Assembly: GCF_025398735.1 (NCBI RefSeq)
Contig: NZ_CP104694.1
Location: 1,885,001 to 1,949,000 of the forward strand
Reading direction: 5' to 3'
Origin: Tahibacter amnicola
GTDB taxonomy: Bacteria; Pseudomonadota; Gammaproteobacteria; Xanthomonadales; Rhodanobacteraceae
Length of the DNA: 64,000 nt
Shown here: positions 4,330-16,388 of the stretch, one piece after another
Layout of the letters: each line of letters starts with the position of its first letter
How positions within the stretch are numbered: position 1 is the stretch's first letter
Notes under the pieces: model-generated
Told to the model about the DNA's origin: nothing
Databases searched by the model: none
The model's input: only the letters and a program-made list of their open reading frames with translations
Position numbers and translations under genes: made by a program

Positions 4330-4343
4330 TGGGCCGTGGCGCC

Positions 4344-4368
4344 GGCGGGCCCCCGGCGGGGGCCCGCC
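4344..4368 (+). terminator. Putative terminator after apbC
   Basis: A perfect 11-bp stem (GGCGGGCCCCC) with a 3-base GGC loop begins 14 bases after the apbC stop. Only a weak pyrimidine tail (TCCTTT) follows about nine bases later, so it may be an inefficient or Rho-assisted terminator. Confidence 0.6.
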
Positions 4369-4500
4369 AACGCATCCTTTACGGGCCGGGGACGGATTTG
4401 GTGTAGGCTTGCCGGCTTGTCGCCAGGGTACTGGCCGGGGAGGTCTGTGCCCGGCGGGCCATGGCCCATTCCCGCCGATTCGTCAGCGAACCGAGCCTCG

Positions 4501-5070
4501 ATGAGCATCAAATCCGACAAATGGATCCGCCGCATGGCTGAACGCCACGGCATGATCGATCCGTTCGAACCTGCCCAGGTCAAGCAGAATGCCTCTGGCG
4601 GCCGACTGATCTCCTACGGCACCTCCAGCTACGGCTACGACGTGCGCTGTGCCGACGAGTTCAAGGTCTTCACCAATATCAACTCCACCATCGTCGACCC
4701 GAAAGCCTTTGATCCGAAGAGCTTTGTCGACATCAAGAGCGAAGTCTGCATCATCCCGCCCAACTCCTTCGCGTTGGCGCGGACGGTGGAATTCTTCCGG
4801 ATTCCGCGCCAGGTGCTGACCGTCTGCCTGGGCAAGTCGACCTACGCGCGCTGCGGCATCATCGTGAACGTCACGCCGCTCGAGCCGGAGTGGGAAGGGC
4901 ACGTCACCCTGGAGTTTTCCAATACCACCCCCCTGCCGGCCAAGATTTACGCCAACGAGGGTGTTGCACAAATGCTGTTCTTCGAATCCGACGAGGAATG
5001 CGAGACCAGCTATGCGGACCGCGGCGGCAAGTACCAGGGCCAGCGCGGCGTTACGTTGCCGCGCACATGA
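4501..5070 (+). CDS. dcd: dCTP deaminase
   Basis: Deaminates dCTP to dUTP, feeding thymidylate synthesis in the cytoplasm (189 aa, normal length). The SSYGYDVR motif is near residues 42-49. The segment [16 protein letters not shown] carries the expected catalytic glutamate (Glu138 here, the same number as in E. coli Dcd), and the protein ends with QRGVTLPRT as in the trimeric family. An in-frame extension upstream lacks family similarity, so the ATG at 4501 ([11 protein letters not shown]) is chosen. It follows apbC after a hairpin, in the same order as in other Xanthomonadales. Confidence 0.97.
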
Positions 5071-6713: not shown

Positions 6714-7379
6714 CTAGTGCGTGGCCCCGGCCGCAATGCGCCGGTCCCGGCGGGTTGTCGCCGCGGTTTCGATCAGGATGCGCAGGCCGCGCTGCACGGT
6801 CTCCAGCGCCAGCCCGGGTGCGCCCGGGTGGCGAGCTGCCTGTTCCGGCAAATAGGGAATGTGCACGAAGCCGCCGCGACAGGTGCGCCGGGACGCCAGT
6901 GCGTGCATCAGCGCGAAGAACACGTGGTTGCACACGAATGTGCCTGCCGTCTGGGAGATCTCCGCGGGCACACCCGCGCCCTGCAGCGCTGTCAGCATCG
7001 ATTTGATGGGCAGTGTGGCGAAGTATGCCGCCGGGGCGTCCGCAATGATGGGGCGGTCGACCGGCTGGCGGCCGGCATTGTCGGGAATGCGGGCGTCGTC
7101 GACATTGATTGCCACCCGCTCGATGGACAGCGCGGCACGCCCGCCGGCCTGTCCCACGCACAGGACGATACCGGGTTCCGCACGAGCGATTGCGGCGCGC
7201 AATGCCCGGCGCGATCGGCCAAATTCGGTCGGCAGGCAAGTCGCCACAATGCGATGGCCAGCGATGTCTTCGCCGTCCAGCCCACGCACCGCCTCCCAGG
7301 ACGGGTTGATCGTCTCGCCACCGAAAGGGTCAAAGCCCGTCAGCAGCACTTTTCGCGCCGTAGCTGCCCGGCGGCTCAT
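6714..7379 (-). CDS. pcp: Pyroglutamyl-peptidase I (pyrrolidone-carboxylate peptidase)
   Basis: Cysteine peptidase of family C15 (221 aa) that removes N-terminal pyroglutamate (5-oxoproline) from peptides. N-terminal LLTGFDPFGG is diagnostic. The expected triad is visible as Glu87 (in LSIERVAIN), Cys150 (in GTFVCNHVFF) and His173 (in GFVHIPYLPEQ). It is the last gene of an eight-gene minus-strand operon. Its ATG overlaps the stop of the DUF979 gene by four bases. The context implies that released pyroglutamate is then opened to glutamate by PxpABC encoded upstream. Confidence 0.97.
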   Translation of the reverse strand: MSRRAATARKVLLTGFDPFGGETINPSWEAVRGLDGEDIAGHRIVATCLPTEFGRSRRALRAAIARAEPGIVLCVGQAGGRAALSIERVAINVDDARIPDNAGRQPVDRPIIADAPAAYFATLPIKSMLTALQGAGVPAEISQTAGTFVCNHVFFALMHALASRRTCRGGFVHIPYLPEQAARHPGAPGLALETVQRGLRILIETAATTRRDRRIAAGATH

Positions 7380-8356
7380 CGGAATGCCAGGAAATAGAGC
7401 AACGCAATGTTCACCACCGCCAGCACCACGGCGGTGGGCCACTGGGCGCGAATCACGCCGTAGGGGCTCTTCAGCTCCAGCAGGATCGCCGGCACCATAT
7501 TGAAGTTGGCTGCCATGGGCGTGAGCAGCGTGCCGCAGTAACCGGTCAGCATGCCGATCGCGCCGATAACGGCCGCGTTCGCGTTGTGCTGCTCGATCAG
7601 TAGCGGCAGCGCGATGCCCGCCGTGACCACCGGGAACGCGGCAAAGGCATTGCCCATGATGATCGTGAACAGCATCATGCCCAGGCCATACGCCAGCACG
7701 TAGCCGAACACGTTTCCGGCGGGAACAGCACGGGTCACCAGTGCCGCGATCACTTCGCCGACGCCGGTGGCCGTGAAGACATTGCCCAGTGCCGCCAGCA
7801 GCATCGGCAGCACGATGGCCCAGCTCAGGGCGTCCAGCAGGCGGGCTGATTCCACCACGGCCTGCGCCGGCCGGGAACCGGTCACGCGCAGGGCGGCGAC
7901 CAGGGCCACGGCGCAGGCAATGGCCAGGGCGACCAGGGTTGGTGAATCCTTGCCGAGCAGGAAGCTGCCGTCGACGCCGAAGTAGGACCCGAGCACCGAC
8001 GGCAACACCAGCACGGCGGTCACGGCGGGAATGAGCAGCGCCGGACCGAACAGGCGGTGACCCAGCCGGCGTGCCGTGGCTTCGCGCCGGGGGCGATCGG
8101 CGTCGACCGTGGCGGCGCGCGTCATCCTTCCGGATCCGGCCAGCAGCGCAATCACGATGACGCCGACACCGACCAGCTGTGTCGGCAGCCGGTTGCCCGA
8201 TTTGGTTTCGGCGATCACCCAGTCGCCGCCGGCAAACACCAGCGTCAGGATGAGCCAGAATGCCGCGTTCGCCCAGCGCCGCGCGCGCAGGTCCATCAAC
8301 GCCGCGGCGCCGAGGATCAAGGCGACCAGCCACCACACGAAGCTAGCGCTGAACAT
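7376..8356 (-). CDS. DUF979 family membrane protein (probable transporter subunit)
   Basis: A 326-aa polytopic membrane protein with about nine hydrophobic segments. The start at 8356 (MFSASFVWWLV) begins directly with the first helix. Conserved-looking stretches include GNAFAAFPVVTAGIALPLL and TGYCGTLLTPMAANFN. DUF979 proteins are typically encoded beside a DUF969 protein and a pyroglutamyl peptidase, and here all three overlap. The pair resembles two halves of an ion-transporter-type permease. The inferred role is uptake of pyroglutamate or pyroglutamyl peptides; this is not demonstrated. It overlaps DUF969 by 14 bases and pcp by 4. Confidence 0.85.
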   Translation of the reverse strand: MFSASFVWWLVALILGAAALMDLRARRWANAAFWLILTLVFAGGDWVIAETKSGNRLPTQLVGVGVIVIALLAGSGRMTRAATVDADRPRREATARRLGHRLFGPALLIPAVTAVLVLPSVLGSYFGVDGSFLLGKDSPTLVALAIACAVALVAALRVTGSRPAQAVVESARLLDALSWAIVLPMLLAALGNVFTATGVGEVIAALVTRAVPAGNVFGYVLAYGLGMMLFTIIMGNAFAAFPVVTAGIALPLLIEQHNANAAVIGAIGMLTGYCGTLLTPMAANFNMVPAILLELKSPYGVIRAQWPTAVVLAVVNIALLYFLAFR

Positions 8357-9047
8357 GCGTATTCCCCGTGACCGCCCGCGCTTTCTGCAGCCGGCGCTGG
8401 AAGAAGTGCAGCCGGATGGCGTGGATGATGAATGCGGCAATCGCCGTCGGAATGGCCCAGAGCGCGATCACGAGGGGCTCCATCGGCAATCCGTGGCTGG
8501 CGAAGAAGCTCTGGATGATCAGCACCGCGCCGATGGCGATAAAGACATCCTCGCCGAAGAACATGCCGATATTGTCGGTTGCCGAACACATGGCGCGGGT
8601 TGCATCGCGCTCCTCATCCGATAGCGGCGCATGCGCCTTCTCCGCGGCCGCTTCGGCCATCGGCGCGATCAGTGGGCGCACGGTCTGCGCGTGGCCGCAG
8701 GCCGATTGCAGGCCGACCATGCTGCTGACCTGGCGGATGCCCAGGTAGGTCACCAGCAGCCGCGTCAAGGTCATCCCCTGCAACCGGGCGATCCAGGTCT
8801 GCGCATGTTCGCGCAGGCCGGCGTGTTCCAGCAGGCCGATCACCGGCAGGGTCAGCGCGATCACCATTGGCGAGCGCGTCGTGACGAACGCATCGCCGAT
8901 CAGTGCCAGCAGATCGGGCAGCGATTTGCCGGCGGCAAATCCCGAGGTCAATCCGGCGCTGACCACCACGATCATCGGATTGAGGCGCAGGGCAAAACCG
9001 GCGACGACAACGGCAACGCCCAGTAGCGGCCAGTAATTCAGGTCCAT
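8343..9047 (-). CDS. DUF969 family membrane protein (probable transporter subunit)
   Basis: A 234-aa integral membrane protein, partner of DUF979. The ATG at 9047 (MDLNYWPLLGVAVVV) places the first helix at the N-terminus. It contains the family-like stretch GLQSACGHAQTVRPLIAP and the ATDNIGMFFGEDVFIAIGA region, followed by a final helix and a basic tail. It overlaps pxpA by 10 bases upstream and DUF979 by 14 downstream, implying tight stoichiometric expression. Being between pcp and pxpA suggests it supplies or exchanges the substrate shared by those enzymes; this is inference from context. Confidence 0.85.
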   Translation of the reverse strand: MDLNYWPLLGVAVVVAGFALRLNPMIVVVSAGLTSGFAAGKSLPDLLALIGDAFVTTRSPMVIALTLPVIGLLEHAGLREHAQTWIARLQGMTLTRLLVTYLGIRQVSSMVGLQSACGHAQTVRPLIAPMAEAAAEKAHAPLSDEERDATRAMCSATDNIGMFFGEDVFIAIGAVLIIQSFFASHGLPMEPLVIALWAIPTAIAAFIIHAIRLHFFQRRLQKARAVTGNTHVQR

Positions 9048-9811
9048 GTGTTCTCCGAGAGTGCGGCAACGCCGATGCCGGCGCCTTCCAGTGCGCCGCG
9101 CAACCGGCGGGCGAACTCCGCGGCGTCGGCTTTGTCGCCATGGATGCACAGGGTCTGAGCGGACAGCGTGATGACCTGGCCGTCGCGGGCGACGACTTCG
9201 CCCTGCGCGGCGATCCGCAGCGCCTGCGCTACGGCCTCGTCAATCGACGACAGCACGGCGTCGCTTTCGCGGCGCGGTACCAGGCTGCCATCAGTCTGGT
9301 AGCGCCGGTCGCAGAAAGCCTCGTGCGCCACGCGCAGGCCCGCACGCGTGCCGGCGCGTGTCAGCGCGCTGTCGGCCAGGCCGACCAGTACCAGGCGCGG
9401 ATCGAAATCACGCACGGCGGCTGCGATGGCGTCAGCCAAGGTGTCATCGCGGGCGGCCATGTTGTAGAGCGCCCCGTGGGGTTTGACATGAAACAGTGCG
9501 CGCCGGTGGGTACGCACAAAAGCGTCCAGCGCGCCGATCTGGTAGAGCACCAGTGCGTAGGCCTCATTCGGTGAGACGGCCATGTCGCGTCGGCCGAATC
9601 CGGCCAGATCCGGCAGCGACGGGTGTGCACCGATGGGGATGCCGTGGCGCGCGGCCGCTTCCACGGTCTGGCGCATCGTGTCCGGATCGCCGGCGTGGAA
9701 GCCGCAGGCGATATTGACGGAGCTGACGTGGGGCATCACGGCGATGTCCTGGCCCATCTTCCAGGCCCCGAAGGATTCGCCCATGTCGCAATTGAGGTCG
9801 ATGGTCCGCAT
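9038..9811 (-). CDS. pxpA: 5-oxoprolinase subunit A (LamB/YcsF family)
   Basis: Subunit A of the ATP-dependent prokaryotic 5-oxoprolinase, which opens 5-oxoproline to L-glutamate with PxpB and PxpC (257 aa, normal). The N-terminal signature DLNCDMGESFGAWKMG and the stretch VNIACGFHAGDP are diagnostic, as are FHVKPHGALYN and CIHGDKADA. The ATG at 9811 is chosen because MRTIDLNCD matches the family N-terminus. It is separated from pxpC by 95 bases, the only sizeable gap inside the operon, which could hold a secondary promoter. It overlaps the DUF969 gene by 10 bases. Confidence 0.97.
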   Translation of the reverse strand: MRTIDLNCDMGESFGAWKMGQDIAVMPHVSSVNIACGFHAGDPDTMRQTVEAAARHGIPIGAHPSLPDLAGFGRRDMAVSPNEAYALVLYQIGALDAFVRTHRRALFHVKPHGALYNMAARDDTLADAIAAAVRDFDPRLVLVGLADSALTRAGTRAGLRVAHEAFCDRRYQTDGSLVPRRESDAVLSSIDEAVAQALRIAAQGEVVARDGQVITLSAQTLCIHGDKADAAEFARRLRGALEGAGIGVAALSENTWT

Positions 9812-9906
9812 GGCATTCCTTTCCGGCAGGAGAAGCGCGGTTTCCGCAGCGCGCGTTCCAGGTGGTTGCCGCGCGCAAGGCGTGATGGTAGCGAGGCGGG
9901 GCTTGC

Positions 9907-10899
9907 CTAGGACAGTGCAAGCGCGTGCAAGTCGAGCGCCGCCAGACGTGCGTCGATCTCCGCCTCCAGTCTTCCCAGCGCACCGGCGACACGATAGCCG
10001 GCCCGTACGGCATCGTCGGGTGTGACCAGGGTAAATACCGCCTCGTCGCCCGGCCGTTGTTGAGCAATGCGGGGAAGGTCTGCCTCGATGACGTGCGCGA
10101 TGCGCGGGTAGCCGCCGGTCGTCGGATGCTCGGCGCCCAGCACGATGGGCAGGCCCGCGGGCGGCAGCTGCACGGTGCCGCGGCAGACGCATTCGGAGAT
10201 CAGTTCCAATGGCTGCGTCAGTTGCAGCGCCGGGCCGTCCAGGCGCAGACCGACGCGATTGGAGTCGGGCTGGATGCGATAGGGGTGACTGGTCAGCGCC
10301 ACGCGCGACGCGCCGTCAAGCCATTCGTAGTGGGTGCCCGGCGTCAATCGGATCGGTGCCCGCACATTGGCCGTGAACCAGGGGCTGGGACTGCACGACC
10401 AGCGCGGCGCGGTGCGGTGGCCGATCCGATCCGGCAGCGCGGCGACCGCCAGGGTGTCACCCGACTGCAGCGGACGTCCACCCAGCGGACCAATTGCGGC
10501 ATTCACGTCGGTACTGCGGCTGCCGAGCACCGGTTTGACGGCAATGCCACCGCGCACTGCAAGATAGGTACGTGCACCCTGGCGCATGCCGTGACATTCG
10601 AGCGTGGTGCCCGCCGACAATGGAACGGGGCGCCAGGTTGGTACCGGCTGCCCATTGATGGAGGCCTCCAGCGGTGCACCGGCAAGCGCGATCCAGGCGT
10701 CGCTGGAAAACCGCAAGGTCGGACCCGTCAGCGTGATCTCCAGCAGCGCAGCGGTGATGTCATTGCCCACCAGCCGATTGGCGAGCCGGGCGCAAACGGG
10801 ATCGGCGCTGCCCGCGCTGCCGATGCCGGCGCCGGCATAGCCATTGCGGCCGCTGTCCTGCACGGTCGTCTGCATGCCTGGCCTGAGCACGGTGATCAT
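9907..10899 (-). CDS. pxpC: 5-oxoprolinase subunit C (biotin-dependent carboxyltransferase-like, KipA family)
   Basis: 330-aa subunit of 5-oxoprolinase (PxpC/KipA, domain CT_A_B). The N-terminus MITVLRPGMQTTVQDSGR is characteristic, followed by GSADPVCARLANRLVGN and later ILGAEHPTTGGYPRIA-like sequence (VLGAEHPTTGGYPRIAHV). It forms the catalytic complex with PxpB and PxpA. Its ATG overlaps the pxpB stop by four bases, so B and C are translationally coupled. Confidence 0.96.
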   Translation of the reverse strand: MITVLRPGMQTTVQDSGRNGYAGAGIGSAGSADPVCARLANRLVGNDITAALLEITLTGPTLRFSSDAWIALAGAPLEASINGQPVPTWRPVPLSAGTTLECHGMRQGARTYLAVRGGIAVKPVLGSRSTDVNAAIGPLGGRPLQSGDTLAVAALPDRIGHRTAPRWSCSPSPWFTANVRAPIRLTPGTHYEWLDGASRVALTSHPYRIQPDSNRVGLRLDGPALQLTQPLELISECVCRGTVQLPPAGLPIVLGAEHPTTGGYPRIAHVIEADLPRIAQQRPGDEAVFTLVTPDDAVRAGYRVAGALGRLEAEIDARLAALDLHALALS

Positions 10900-11612
10900 G
10901 GCGCGTGGCTCTGCGAGCGTAAGTCAAACGCCGCCTGGCTGATGGGCACGAAGCGCACAATATCGCCCGGGGCGAGCCGGTTCGGCGGATCGCGGTCCGC
11001 GTGAAACAGCACCTCCGGAGTGCGTCCGATCAATTGCCAGCCGCCCGGCAGGACACACGGATAGATGCCGGTCTGTGCGCCGCCGATCGCGACGGACCCG
11101 GCCGGCACGCGCGTCCGCGGTGTGGGGCGTCGCGGCGTGTGCAGTTGCGAATCAAGGCCCAGCAGGTAGGGAAAGCCCGGCGCAAAACCCAGCATGGCGA
11201 CGGTATAGATCGCGCCCGCATGGCGTTCGATCGCCGCCTCGACAGACATTCCCGCGTGGCGCGCGACGTCGGCCAGGTCGGGGCCATGGTCGCCGCCGTA
11301 GCACACCGGGATCTCGATCGTTCGTGCCGATTCCCGGGAAGTGGCATCGATATCGCCCATCGCCTGGATAACGACGGCGGCAACCGCGGTGGCCGGATCG
11401 CTGCCGATGCTATCGCGGTAGTAGCTGGGGTCGTACCGGACACCAAGGCTGGCGTAGGCGGGGATCAGGTCCAGTACGCCGGGAATGGCGGCGGCGCGTA
11501 TCCTGGCCGCCATTGCATGTACGCGGCGGTTGGTGGCCGCGTCAATGCCCGTGCCCAGTTCCACAAGGAGCGTATCAGCACCCAGGAACGTCACGCGCGG
11601 CGACGCGTTCAT
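10896..11612 (-). CDS. pxpB: 5-oxoprolinase subunit B (KipI family)
   Basis: 238-aa PxpB/KipI (CT_C_D domain) subunit of 5-oxoprolinase. Family hallmarks include IPVCYGGDHGPDL, then LGFAPGFPYLLGLD and PAGSVAIGGAQTGIYP. It overlaps pxpC and the HIT gene by four bases each. In Bacillus a homologous pair (KipI/KipA) was first described as a sporulation kinase regulator. Here the presence of pxpA, pxpC and pcp in the same operon makes the oxoprolinase role far more likely. Confidence 0.96.
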   Translation of the reverse strand: MNASPRVTFLGADTLLVELGTGIDAATNRRVHAMAARIRAAAIPGVLDLIPAYASLGVRYDPSYYRDSIGSDPATAVAAVVIQAMGDIDATSRESARTIEIPVCYGGDHGPDLADVARHAGMSVEAAIERHAGAIYTVAMLGFAPGFPYLLGLDSQLHTPRRPTPRTRVPAGSVAIGGAQTGIYPCVLPGGWQLIGRTPEVLFHADRDPPNRLAPGDIVRFVPISQAAFDLRSQSHAP

Positions 11613-12046
11613 GTCTCCGGCGAGAGCGACAGGCCGGCACGCAGCAGGCCGAGGACACGGCTGCTCTCCGCAGCCGTGTAGGGATCAGCGACGCCAACGC
11701 CCCAGACCGGCCGCGGCCAGGCTGCATCGCCCACATAGCGGGCGATCACGTGCAGGTGCAGTTGCGGCACCACGTTGCCTAATGCGGCAATGTTCATTTT
11801 GTCGGGCTTGGCGATGGCGTGCAGGACATGGGCTGCCTGGTTGACCTCGTCGAGCAACTGGCGCTGCTCCTCGCGCGACAGTTCGGTCAGCTCGCGCAGA
11901 CCCGGCCGCCGCGGCACCAGGATCAGCCAGGGGAAGCGCATGTCGTTCATCAGCAACACGCGGGAAAGCGCCAGTTCGCCGACCACGTGGCTGTCATTGG
12001 CCAGACGCGGATCGAGCACGAACGCCGTATCGAGCGATGGGGTCAT
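11609..12046 (-). CDS. HIT family protein
   Basis: 145-aa histidine-triad protein, probably a small nucleotide hydrolase or transferase in the cytoplasm. The triad motif is QLHLHVIAR (H-x-H-x-hydrophobic near residues 97-101, with Gln at the first position instead of His, a common variant). It opens with an acidic/hydrophobic N-terminus containing VGELALSRVLLMND. It overlaps both neighbours by four bases, so it is cotranscribed with pxpB downstream and the dienelactone-hydrolase gene upstream. The nucleotide substrate cannot be predicted, nor any specific link to 5-oxoproline metabolism. Confidence 0.9.
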   Translation of the reverse strand: MTPSLDTAFVLDPRLANDSHVVGELALSRVLLMNDMRFPWLILVPRRPGLRELTELSREEQRQLLDEVNQAAHVLHAIAKPDKMNIAALGNVVPQLHLHVIARYVGDAAWPRPVWGVGVADPYTAAESSRVLGLLRAGLSLSPET

Positions 12047-12720
12047 GACTGCCTCGCAGGGACCAGTTCGCGTGCAAAGAAAGCCAGTGTCCGTTCCAGC
12101 GCCAGGGCGGCGGATGCCGGATCAAAGTCGGCGCGCTGGTCGCAGTTGAAGCCGTGACCGGCGGGATACAGGTGGAACTCGGCCTGTGGCTGAGCGGCGC
12201 GGTGGCGGGCAACATCCTCCGGGGGAATCAGCGGGTCTTTCTCGCCGAAATGAAAGAGCAGGGGCGCTTTCGCCGGTTCTGCCAGGAACGGAACGCTACG
12301 TCCGCCGTAGTACACCACCGCCGGCAGTGCCAGCCGCGTGGCGCTGAGAAAACTGACTGTGCCACCCCAGCAGAATCCCGTAACGCCGACTTTGCCCGAG
12401 GATGCGATGGCCTCGGCGGCACTGCCCACCGCGGCGACGGCGCGGTCGAATCCGACCTCGGCCGCCAGGGTGCGACCGCGCGCGACGCCGGCTTCGTCGT
12501 AGCCGAGCTCGACCCCGGTTTCGATGTGGTCGAAAACGGCCGGGGCGATAGCGGTGTAGCCTGCCGCGGCGAAGCGGTCGACCACGCTGCGGATGTGCGC
12601 GTTGACGCCGAAGATTTCCTGCACGACGACAATGCCGCCGCGCGGCGCTCCTGCCGGATCGGCACGGTACGCGCCGATGCAGTGCATGCCATCGGTGGCG
12701 ATCTGGATGGTCTGGCCCAT
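12043..12720 (-). CDS. Dienelactone hydrolase family protein
   Basis: 225-aa alpha/beta hydrolase of the DLH family. The nucleophile is the Cys in GFCWGG, an Asp lies in the FGEKDPLIP segment, and the His is in PAGHGFNCD, giving the Cys-Asp-His triad expected for the family. The N-terminus MGQTIQIATDGMHCIGAY and RGGIVVVQEIFGVN are typical. It appears to be the first gene of the eight-gene operon ending with pcp. The natural substrate is unknown, and nothing here suggests aromatic catabolism. A 73-base gap separates it from the diguanylate cyclase gene on the same strand. Confidence 0.92.
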   Translation of the reverse strand: MGQTIQIATDGMHCIGAYRADPAGAPRGGIVVVQEIFGVNAHIRSVVDRFAAAGYTAIAPAVFDHIETGVELGYDEAGVARGRTLAAEVGFDRAVAAVGSAAEAIASSGKVGVTGFCWGGTVSFLSATRLALPAVVYYGGRSVPFLAEPAKAPLLFHFGEKDPLIPPEDVARHRAAQPQAEFHLYPAGHGFNCDQRADFDPASAALALERTLAFFARELVPARQS

Positions 12721-12793: not shown

Positions 12794-14902
12794 TCAGGCG
12801 GCGTAGGGAACCACGCGGTTTCGCCCTTGCGCCTTGGCCCGGTAGACGGCTACATCGGCCGCCCCCAGCAGCGCTTCGAGGTTGGCTGCCCGCGCCAGCT
12901 GCACGGTGGCAAGGCCAATGCTGATCGTCAGTGGATTGGGTGCGTGCAGAAGCGGGGTGAGCCCGCTGGCGACCTTGTCGCGCAGGCGTTCGGCGATCTC
13001 GGCGGCAACGGTGAGATCCTTTCCGGGCAGCACGACGACAAATTCCTCGCCGCCGTAGCGTCCCACCAGGTCGCCCGGTTCCAGCCACTGGCGAATGATC
13101 TGCACGCCACTGGCGAGCACGCGGTCGCCAAAGAGATGGCCGTGCTCGTCGTTGATGCGTTTGAAATGGTCGAAGTCGATCAGCAGCACCGAGAGCTCCT
13201 GGCCTTCGCGCAGGGCATGACGCAGGTGGTCTTCGAGCTGGCGCAGCAGGTGGCCGCGGTTGTAGGCGCCGGTCAGCGGATCGGTGATCGCGGCCTGGTA
13301 GAGCTCTGCCGCGTGCGTACTGAGCTTGGCATTCGCGTCTTCCAGTGCGCGCTCGTGGGCACTGATCTCTTCGTTTTTTGCTTCGAGCGCGCGGTTGAGC
13401 CGGCGTGTCGTGCGGTAGCGGCTGAACAGGACGGCCGAAATCAATCCGAGGGTGATCACAAGGCCAATGCCGATGCGACGCGCCAGCGCCTGTTCGCGCA
13501 GGCGCAGCCCCTGCACTTCGTTGGTGAGGCTGAGCATCTGGATGCGCTGGTCGGCTTCGGCGCGCTCGTAGCGGGCCTTGAGGGCTGCCAGCTGGCGGCC
13601 CGAGCGCGTGCCGAGCAGTTCTTCGCGCAGCGCCAGGCGCTTGCTGGCGAGGTCCAGTGCGATCGCTGTTTCGCCGGCGGAGCGGGCCAGCTCCTGGCGT
13701 GCGGCCATGGCGTCGGCCAGTTTCGCCTTGATATTGGCTTCACGCAGGGCGGCGATTGATTCGTCGAGCAGGCGCCGGGCCTGGTCGGTGTCATTGCGCC
13801 GCATCGCTGCACGGCCGAGGTAGAGCAACGCGCCGCCGATGATTTCGCGGTGACGCAGCTCGCGGCCGATCGCCAGGGCCTCGCGCAGCGCCGCCTGGGC
13901 TTCGTCGATCTGGCCCAGGCTGAGCTGGGCCCGGCCGATTTCCAGTTTCTCCAGCCCGATGTATGGCCGGTTGCCCAGGCTCGCGTCGATCGCCAGTGCC
14001 TGGCGCGCCATGGTCAGGGCGCGCGTGGCGTCCCCCTGGTCGTTGCTGAAGCTGGCATAGCTGCCCAGGGCGCTGGCCAGCGACTGGACGTCATGCCGCT
14101 CCTGCGAGGCCCGGACGGCGGCCTCGAAATTGGCCTTGGCCTGTTCGGCGTCTTCGATTTCGCGATACAGCAGGGCGATATTGCGGTACGACAGGTCCAC
14201 GCGCTCGAGCGGCCCGAGCCGGGTGCGGATGTCCAGGGCCTTGAGCTGCAGTTCGAGGGCGCGGGCGAAGTCGCCCAGGTCGCGATGGACAGTTCCCAGG
14301 TTCATCAGGACCTGGGCTTCGCCGGAGGCATCCTGGATCGCCCGGCGCAGGGCGAGGGCGGATTCCTGGTGCTCGCGGGCGCGGTCGAGCTGGCCACGAC
14401 GGCGCGCGATCACACCCAGGTAGCCTTCCGCGGCTGCCTGGGCGCGCAGGTCGACCAGGCGTCGGCCCTGCAGCAGGAGCTGGTCGGTCAGCCGCTCGGC
14501 CAGGTCATAGTCGCCATGGCTGATCGCCACCGAGGCCACATTGTCCAGCGCTTCGAGCAGCCGTTCGGGCGGGCCGTAGCGGCTGGCCAGGTCGCCGACC
14601 AGCTGCCACGCCGGCGCAGCCTGCTGGGCCCCCAGCGAAACCTGGAGGGTCCCGACGAACCGGGCCAGGTGGATGCGGCCGTGCGGTCCCAGGAGCGGAC
14701 CGAGCAGACGGTCTCCGCTGCGCCAGGCGGTGTCGATGGCGGCAGAGGTGGTGCCGGCGGCGGTCGCCAGAGGCCCGGCGGCGGCGGGTGACAGATTTTC
14801 GGCGTTGAGCGGATCCACCAGGCCGAAGCCGCAGACGGCCAGCGCCGTCATCAACACGACCAGCGCACGGGCGCGGCGGGGCAGGGGCGGTCCGCTCGGC
14901 AT
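12794..14902 (-). CDS. TPR-GGDEF diguanylate cyclase
   Basis: Large sensor-type diguanylate cyclase. Several tetratricopeptide repeats (about residues 90-390) follow an N-terminal signal segment. Then come a coiled coil, one transmembrane helix (GIGLVITLGLISAVLF), a second coiled coil and a GGDEF domain carrying an intact RYGGEEF active site, so c-di-GMP synthesis is likely. The repeats probably face the periplasm. Start choice is uncertain: the ATG at 14902 (MPSGPPLPRR) gives a neat signal peptide and has AGGAA upstream, whereas the ATG at 14968 has AAGGTG upstream and a TTG at 14989 is also open. The gene diverges from rimO. No EAL domain is present. Confidence 0.92.
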   Translation of the reverse strand: MPSGPPLPRRARALVVLMTALAVCGFGLVDPLNAENLSPAAAGPLATAAGTTSAAIDTAWRSGDRLLGPLLGPHGRIHLARFVGTLQVSLGAQQAAPAWQLVGDLASRYGPPERLLEALDNVASVAISHGDYDLAERLTDQLLLQGRRLVDLRAQAAAEGYLGVIARRRGQLDRAREHQESALALRRAIQDASGEAQVLMNLGTVHRDLGDFARALELQLKALDIRTRLGPLERVDLSYRNIALLYREIEDAEQAKANFEAAVRASQERHDVQSLASALGSYASFSNDQGDATRALTMARQALAIDASLGNRPYIGLEKLEIGRAQLSLGQIDEAQAALREALAIGRELRHREIIGGALLYLGRAAMRRNDTDQARRLLDESIAALREANIKAKLADAMAARQELARSAGETAIALDLASKRLALREELLGTRSGRQLAALKARYERAEADQRIQMLSLTNEVQGLRLREQALARRIGIGLVITLGLISAVLFSRYRTTRRLNRALEAKNEEISAHERALEDANAKLSTHAAELYQAAITDPLTGAYNRGHLLRQLEDHLRHALREGQELSVLLIDFDHFKRINDEHGHLFGDRVLASGVQIIRQWLEPGDLVGRYGGEEFVVVLPGKDLTVAAEIAERLRDKVASGLTPLLHAPNPLTISIGLATVQLARAANLEALLGAADVAVYRAKAQGRNRVVPYAA

Positions 14903-15035
14903 GGGAAACCGGTTCCTGGTGGAGTCGGGCAAGCTTTGCAGGATTTGCGCCGTGGCGTAAGGCGCCATGGAAGACACCTTGGTAAACAAAGTTCACGTCG
15001 GCAAAGGGCATTCGACGCGATGCCGGCCGCCTCGT

Positions 15036-15041
15036 TACAAT
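15036..15041 (+). promoter_or_regulatory. Putative -10 element (TACAAT) for rimO
   Basis: TACAAT in the context GTTACAATCGCCGG lies 27 bases before the chosen rimO start. A loose TTCGAC sits 19 bases upstream. The context closely resembles the box before apbC. Positional inference only. Confidence 0.4.
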
Positions 15042-15068
15042 CGCCGGCTTGCCTCAATGAGTTCCGCC

Positions 15069-16388
15069 ATGTCCCGCCAGAATCCCAAGGTCGGCTTTGT
15101 CAGCCTCGGCTGCCCCAAGGCACTGGTCGATTCCGAACGTATTCTCACGCAGCTGCGGGTCGAGGGGTACGACATCGTGCAGACCTACGACAACGCGGAC
15201 GTGGTCGTGGTCAACACCTGCGGATTCATTGACGCCGCGGTCGAGGAATCGCTCGACGCCATTGGCGAGGCCATGGCCGAGAACGGCAAGGTGATCGTGA
15301 CCGGCTGCCTGGGCGCCAAGGCCGATGTGATCCGCGAGGCGCATCCGGACGTGCTGTCGATTTCCGGCCCGCAGGACTACACCAGCGTCATGAACGCCGT
15401 GCACGCCCAGGTGCCGCCCAAGCATGATCCCTTCCTGGACCTGGTCCCGCCGCAGGGGCTCAAGCTCACGCCCAAGCACTACGCCTATCTGAAAATCTCC
15501 GAAGGCTGCAATCACCGCTGTTCGTTCTGCATCATCCCCTCGATGCGTGGCGACCTGCGTTCGCGCCCGGTCGATGAAGTGCTGGTGGAGGCGGAGAAGC
15601 TCGCCAAGGGCGGCGTGAAGGAGCTGCTGGTCATCTCGCAGGACACCAGCGCCTACGGCGTGGATCTGAAGTACGCCGAGCGCCAGTGGCGCGGCAAGGC
15701 CTACCGTACCCGCATGACCGAACTGTGCGACGGTCTTGCGGAATTGGGTATCTGGACACGTCTCCACTATGTATACCCGTACCCTCACGTGGACGAAGTC
15801 GTCCCGCTGATGGCGCAGGGGCGCCTGCTGCCGTACCTGGACATCCCGTTCCAGCACGCCAGCCCGCGTATCCTGAAGCTGATGAAGCGGCCTGGAGCAG
15901 TGGACAAAGTGCTGGCCCGGGTGCGCAACTGGCGCGAGATTTGTCCGGATCTGACCATCCGCTCCACGTTTATCGTCGGCTTTCCGGGAGAGACCGAGGC
16001 CGAATTCGAGGAACTGCTCGACTTCCTGCGCGAAGCGCAGCTCGACCGCGTCGGTGCCTTCGCCTACTCGCCGGTTGATGGCGCTGCGGCCAACGACCTG
16101 CCCGATCCGGTGCCGGACGATATCAAGGAAGAACGCCTGGAACGCTTCATGGAAGTTCAGGCCGAGATCAGCGGCATCCGCCTGGGCGAGAAGATCGGTC
16201 GCCGCATCACGGTGCTGGTCGACCATGCCGACGGCGAGGGTGCAGTGGCGCGATCGTCTGCCGACGCGCCGGAAATCGACGGCGTTGTACACATTGAGGA
16301 CGGCCAGAAACTCAAGCCCGGGCAGTTCGTCGAGGTCGAGGTGATCAACGCCGACAACCACGACCTGTTCGCGCGCGTGGCGGTCTGA
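15069..16388 (+). CDS. rimO: Ribosomal protein S12 methylthiotransferase
   Basis: Radical-SAM methylthiotransferase that modifies an aspartate of ribosomal protein S12 (439 aa). The N-terminal UPF0004 domain has cluster cysteines Cys15, Cys51 and Cys80. The radical-SAM motif CNHRCSFC gives Cys147, Cys151 and Cys154. A TRAM domain occupies the end (about 375-439). The start at 15069 ([15 protein letters not shown]) is preceded by a GAG at good spacing; an ATG 12 bases upstream is possible but lacks a ribosome-binding site. It is divergent from the diguanylate cyclase gene and followed after 18 bases by the DUF3025 gene. Confidence 0.97.

Follow-up and report, generated by a model that had tools for sequence, protein, structure and literature searches.

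A six-gene cassette probably for 5-oxoproline salvage, beside two backbone genes, in Tahibacter amnicola

The membrane protein families DUF969 and DUF979 were reportedly proposed as a 5-oxoproline (5-OP, pyroglutamate) transporter by Niehaus et al. in 2017, as cited by others. Excerpts of PMC12795558 (2026, preliminary) trace the link of the pair to 5-OP to an earlier proposal from co-occurrence, and report that a Campylobacter jejuni mutant of cj0552-4, which includes a DUF2891 gene, lost growth on 5-OP as nitrogen source. In the available part of PMC11467057 (2024), DUF979 is placed in an ion-transporter clan, a confident DUF979/DUF969 complex is given for Clostridioides difficile, and a common origin is argued; in that of PMC6904757, a metabolic model gives the pair the role of pyroglutamate transporter. 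Here we analyse a run of eight minus-strand genes, including both DUF genes, in a 64,000-nucleotide stretch (the window; contig NZ_CP104694.1, positions 1,885,001 to 1,949,000) of the genome of Tahibacter amnicola, which is a 6.46-Mb single contig.

A sequence-only reading of the window had taken these eight genes as a pyroglutamate salvage operon and possibly an undescribed scavenging module. Its core salvage interpretation is probably correct, and it is already published; the module cannot be called undescribed because the idea of a DUF969/DUF979 transporter is in print (PMC12795558, PMC11467057, PMC6904757). The unit comprises six genes that neighbour two backbone genes, and an eight-gene module is not supported. 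New here are the placement of the HIT and DLH genes in the backbone, the agreement counts over 147 genomes, the fused hydantoinase/oxoprolinase in two genomes without PxpA, and DUF2891 in the slot of pcp.

Genes of the cassette and their conservation in the family

The eight genes are present in the order DLH, HIT, pxpB, pxpC, pxpA, DUF969, DUF979 and pcp, and the open reading frames (ORFs) and Pfam matches bore out the earlier coordinates, order, overlaps and 95-base gap. Adjacent genes from DLH to pcp overlap by 4, 4, 4, 10, 14 and 4 bases, and the sole gap in the run is the 95 bases from pxpC to pxpA. Each of the eight proteins matched its expected Pfam family above the cut-off. Three genes encode the 5-oxoprolinase subunits: pxpB for subunit B (10896-11612; CT_C_D, E 1.6e-73), pxpC for subunit C (9907-10899; CT_A_B, E 3.5e-89) and pxpA for subunit A (LamB/YcsF; 9038-9811; LamB_YcsF, E 7.1e-101). 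The start of pxpA was set at the ATG at 9811, downstream of GGAAAGGA; the program-made ORF begins farther upstream. PxpB scored 213.2 bits with TIGR00370 (cut-off 145.55), and PxpA exceeded the cut-offs of PF03746 and NF003814, with conserved residues in the 62 aligned sequences. PxpC aligned over residues 1-311 with the equivalog model NF045499 at 250.5 bits (cut-off 500), and passed the broader model TIGR00724.

The two membrane proteins, the proposed transporter halves, are encoded by adjacent genes on the same strand with the 14-base overlap, DUF969 at 8343-9047 (Pfam DUF969, E 1.3e-80) and DUF979 at 7376-8356 (Pfam DUF979, E 1e-99). Each family has one match in the whole genome, and among the NCBIfam models none matched either protein. 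The last gene, pcp (6714-7379; Peptidase_C15, E 2.4e-77), encodes pyroglutamyl-peptidase I, passing NF009676 and TIGR00504. The catalytic triad of this peptidase family (C15) is Glu/Cys/His, and the corresponding E87, C150 and H173 were kept in all 55 aligned sequences.

Co-occurrence was surveyed in 147 genomes of the window's bacterial family, drawn from a larger group and searched for DUF979, pxpA and pcp. DUF979 and pcp were found together in 86 genomes and both missing from 60; one genome had pcp only and none had DUF979 only. The counts of both, first only, second only and neither were 84, 2, 6 and 55 for DUF979 and pxpA, and 84, 6, 3 and 54 for pxpA and pcp. Over the 147 genomes, DUF979 mismatches pcp in one and pxpA in eight. 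Fisher p values, with related genomes counted as independent, were 7e-31 (DUF979/pxpA), 6e-41 (DUF979/pcp) and 2e-29 (pxpA/pcp). Counted by genus, DUF979 and pcp each occurred in 15 of 26 and pxpA in 17. The two DUF979-only genomes (G216, G254) are probably not genuine exceptions, because both are incomplete and their contigs stop at or just past DUF969. All six pxpA-only genomes were also without pcp. In a wider sample of 114 genomes from the window's class, DUF979 was found in 3 and pxpA in 11.

For gene order, the window's genes were mapped onto 70 stretches from 63 other genomes, selected for holding DUF979 or pxpA. The family has 91 other genomes with either gene, of which 61 were used, and G013 and G040 were added. 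Fifty stretches carry the six genes from pxpB to pcp on one strand, in the same order every time, and this conservation is more than chance would give. The remaining 20 include contig ends (L068, L071), the six stretches with the split operons of genus g118, four pxpA-only genomes, G013, G040 and second DUF979 copies; in L123 and L124 pcp is located on a different contig. In a genome of the window's own genus (G163, L067:1693-6806), about 5 kb lie between pxpB and pxpC and the operon is split.

A possible replacement transporter is found in G119, a pxpA-only genome, where pxpA and a gene for a short-chain dehydrogenase are followed by an ABC permease pair with an ATPase (L085:5063-7269, minus strand). 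No such replacement was seen beside the pxp genes in L090, L092 and L111, where a crude ORF caller and few Pfam checks do not make the absence firm. These loci represent four of the six pxpA-only genomes, all but G150 and G190.

Proposed transport by DUF969 and DUF979

DUF969 and DUF979 are likely the 5-OP transporter because they co-occur with the salvage genes, adjoin them in other groups and are covered by the published mutant, and in this respect the sequence-only reading was upheld. We consider it quite probable that the six genes pxpB-pxpC-pxpA-DUF969-DUF979-pcp, which are seated as a cassette between the backbone genes HIT and dcd, serve salvage together. DUF969 and DUF979 would form an inner-membrane importer of free 5-OP, each contributing half of an ion-transporter-superfamily fold; Pcp would release further 5-OP inside the cell from the N-termini of pyroglutamyl peptides, and PxpABC would open the 5-OP ring to glutamate, driven by ATP. 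Our data establish the identity, order and co-occurrence of the genes and the joint presence of all six at different sites; transport as such, its substrate and direction, and a DUF969-DUF979 heterodimer we infer or take from others.

Structure models were made of single chains. The DUF979 model had a mean pLDDT of 87.9 and a pTM of 0.74, and in its search ion-transporter-superfamily proteins, by our own classification, filled 18 of the top 20 rows. Most of these rows use model residues of about 90-326 or 180-326 and cover part of the target chain; in the ArsB, YdaH and LaINDY rows the alignment spans most of the target. For the DUF969 model (mean pLDDT 85.3, pTM 0.70) the fold search gave no clear match, and profile comparison of DUF979 with DUF969 showed no similarity. 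A sequence search for solved relatives returned none for DUF979 and one meaningless weak row for DUF969. The models agree with the published view that the two proteins may be halves of one transporter, without proving it.

Beyond the family, a scan of a genome collection returned at least 588 DUF979 relatives, of which the analysis kept the 80 most similar to the window. These stretches were sorted by title, or else by similarity, into 50 of the window's order and 30 others. DUF969 adjoins DUF979 in all 30 loci outside the order. At least one pxp gene lies in the stretch at 25 of these loci (pxpC at 24, pxpA at 22, pxpB at 20), pcp at 15 and DUF2891 at nine. The gene directly after DUF979 is pcp at 15 loci, DUF2891 at nine, pxpB at two, pxpA at one and none of these at three. 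In two Pelosinus records (L194, L208), two pxpB-pxpC sets flank one pxpA beside DUF969-DUF979.

The strongest alternative is that the pair imports pyroglutamyl di- or oligopeptides for Pcp inside the cell, free 5-OP being at most a secondary substrate. Pcp is the most faithful companion of DUF979 in the family (86 of 86, with one pcp outside this set). Among 299 genomes sampled from the phylum to which L172 (titled Bacillus sp.) belongs, 14 matched DUF979, 13 of them above the cut-off. DUF969-DUF979-pcp stand together in 11 of the 12 loci fetched wider (11 of 13 with L172), and four of these 12 stretches include pxpA; the stretch of L172 itself contains pxpABC and lacks pcp. Likewise, in six stretches from genus g118 (G117, G143, G212) the operon is split, with DLH-HIT-pxpBCA apart from DUF969-DUF979-pcp, but this may stem from one rearrangement. 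The C. jejuni phenotype, however, concerns free 5-OP, and four Herbaspirillum loci and one Citrobacter locus pair DUF969/DUF979 with pxp genes and DUF2891, with no pcp in the stretch. We regard peptide import as rather unlikely beside import of free 5-OP.

Genomes without PxpA bear on the direction of transport. If the pair exported surplus 5-OP arising from Pcp or from spontaneous cyclisation, DUF969-DUF979-pcp could occur without nearby pxpA, as is the case in L178 and in the eight of 13 Bacillus-phylum loci with no pxpA in the stretch; since pxpA was searched in the stretches of that set, export keeps a chance there. Outside the order, eight of the 30 loci have no pxpA in the stretch, but in seven of these genomes the gene lies at another place; in L192, which was searched as well, it is nearby. 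In the eighth genome, that of Undibacterium hunanense, PxpA gave no match, and DUF969-DUF979-pcp is accompanied by a 1245-residue open frame for a fused hydantoinase/oxoprolinase (HydA-HydB). Together with the loss of growth of the C. jejuni mutant on external 5-OP, this makes export very improbable.

A second genome of this kind is G013, with DUF969-DUF979-DUF2891, no PxpA match and a HydA-HydB frame of 1200 residues. In all, four genomes have DUF979 without PxpA, and the two without contig-end truncation encode the fused protein; the incomplete G216 and G254 gave no HydA match. HydA matched in one of the six pxpA-only genomes (G136, a 703-residue frame) and in none of the other five. In one of the control genomes, Caulobacter, DUF979, DUF2891 and HydA matched and PxpA did not. 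An excerpt of PMC10040529 gives hydantoinase B/oxoprolinase, DUF969, DUF979 and DUF2891 at near-consecutive cluster numbers with equal score. The survey connects DUF969/DUF979 to 5-OP use also where PxpA is missing (two genomes), and it fits a link of the pair with 5-OP use in general, though the counts are low and the fused protein's substrate is unproven. An assignment of the fused HydA-HydB proteins as 5-OP enzymes was tried and could not be made, as both match caprolactamase models far below the cut-off. For the fused protein of L235, the best solved match was an 'N-methylhydantoinase', ranked above a '5-oxoprolinase'.

HIT and DLH between rimO and dcd

HIT hydrolases with a complete triad carry His-x-His-x-His. 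The HIT-domain protein of the window (11609-12046, minus strand; Pfam HIT) has Gln-x-His-x-His, as do all 41 aligned sequences, the Gln replacing the first His while the middle and last His are kept. Its neighbour is the dienelactone-hydrolase-like gene DLH (12043-12720, minus strand; Pfam DLH). Both are co-directional with the cassette, and the sequence-only reading had counted them in the module.

HIT was surveyed genome-wide, and DLH was counted at the HIT site. A HIT match was present in 143 of the 147 family genomes and in all 26 genera, whether or not pxp was present; four of the 143 had an additional weak match. Twenty genomes were sampled at the HIT site: 10 without DUF979, pxpA and pcp, three with pxpA only, and seven with the cassette elsewhere. 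None of the six cassette genes was found at the HIT site of these 20 genomes, where rimO was present in 20, DLH in 19 and dcd in 17, with rimO-DLH-HIT-dcd complete in 16. Because they lie between rimO and dcd in genomes without the cassette there, HIT and DLH are excluded from the salvage module and judged to be backbone neighbours. The empty-site comparison defines the genes of the salvage unit and removes HIT and DLH as false leads.

The six genes occur jointly at different sites. In the DUF979 tree, the copies off the HIT site require three site changes, of which well-supported branches force two. The simplest account is that the six genes moved together at least twice, with DLH and HIT staying put; one of the changes could in principle be a return, and separate moves are taken as simpler. 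One scavenging module of all eight genes, to which the four-base overlaps of DLH, HIT and pxpB in the window and the 35 of 50 complete six-gene sets with DLH and HIT upstream (all 35 in the window's order) might point, is the least probable reading, given the empty sites, the 15 of 50 six-gene sets with neither gene, and the 30 loci outside the order, none of which has HIT or DLH in the stretch.

The site is flanked by rimO (14967-16388) on one side and dcd (within 4336-5070) on the other, both on the plus strand, opposite to the cassette, and both names were confirmed. A TPR-GGDEF gene that the earlier description lacks (12794-14989, minus strand) lies upstream of DLH, its end 73 bases away; since some relatives have a related gene at that position and others do not, it counts as a variable neighbour. 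Promoter-like and terminator-like sites at the locus showed no excess over shuffled sequence. Synteny as a proof of function was rejected, because the oppositely oriented rimO and dcd are conserved at the same site too.

DUF2891 and comparison with known systems

For the family DUF2891, whose function is unknown, a structure has been solved (8ieu). The family takes the slot of pcp at the nine loci L177, L179, L184, L186, L189, L203, L206, L212 and L214, and pcp and DUF2891 never shared a stretch among the best 80 of the at least 588 DUF979 relatives. Whole genomes may hold both, since G126, G162 and G191 have a DUF969-DUF979-DUF2891 set plus the pcp cassette. DUF2891 was present in six of the 147 family genomes. 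The available parts of PMC10040529 and PMC10434189 merely list the family, and in literature on DUF969/DUF979, DUF2891 and 5-OP transport, consisting mostly of titles and abstract openings, no published proposal of an exchange of DUF2891 for pcp was recognised.

We tentatively suggest, as a somewhat doubtful extension, that DUF969/DUF979 could be a general 5-OP import core with interchangeable partners: Pcp or DUF2891, which might be an unrecognised enzyme supplying 5-OP or a precursor, and as oxoprolinase either PxpABC or the fused HydA-HydB. DUF2891 as an alternative source of 5-OP is the most interesting lead, and the survey makes it a testable candidate for 5-OP metabolism.

Three g127 genomes (L094, L097, L100) have a second DUF969-DUF979-DUF2891 set besides a complete pcp cassette, and in L100 the DUF979 frame of this second set is broken. 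In the window's genome, a DUF2891 gene lies far from DUF969/DUF979 (C1:3358461-3359429; L215:7435-8622, minus strand); it has an apparent signal peptide by eye and adjoins an EamA-family transporter gene. Among 72,556 plasmid records 69 match DUF979, of which 39 are from Klebsiella. The two plasmid records examined, L269 (Klebsiella pneumoniae) and L270 (Niveispirillum), carry DUF969-DUF979-DUF2891 near toxin-antitoxin genes, with these three genes annotated by DUF number alone.

Compared with known systems, the pxpABC clusters of Niehaus et al. 2017, known via citing papers, have the same enzyme, the same DUF pair and the same proposed role; what sets the window's bacterial family apart is the chromosomal location between HIT and dcd. 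The C. jejuni set cj0552-4 has DUF969 and DUF979 in common with the window, while its third gene is DUF2891 and that of the window is pcp. PxpT/YcsG, an NRAMP-related transporter of Corynebacterium glutamicum and Bacillus subtilis, is needed for growth on 5-OP and, as in the window, its gene lies beside pxp. Unlike the DUF969/DUF979 pair, however, it is a single-chain transporter, of the APC superfamily and unrelated to the pair; PxpT is described in the available part of PMC13274462. The DUF979 model aligns to part of VcINDY, NaDC3, YdaH and TRAP SiaQM, a relation already proposed in the excerpted PMC11467057. According to the same excerpts, known members of the ion-transporter superfamily have two repeats, whereas DUF979 has a single repeat.

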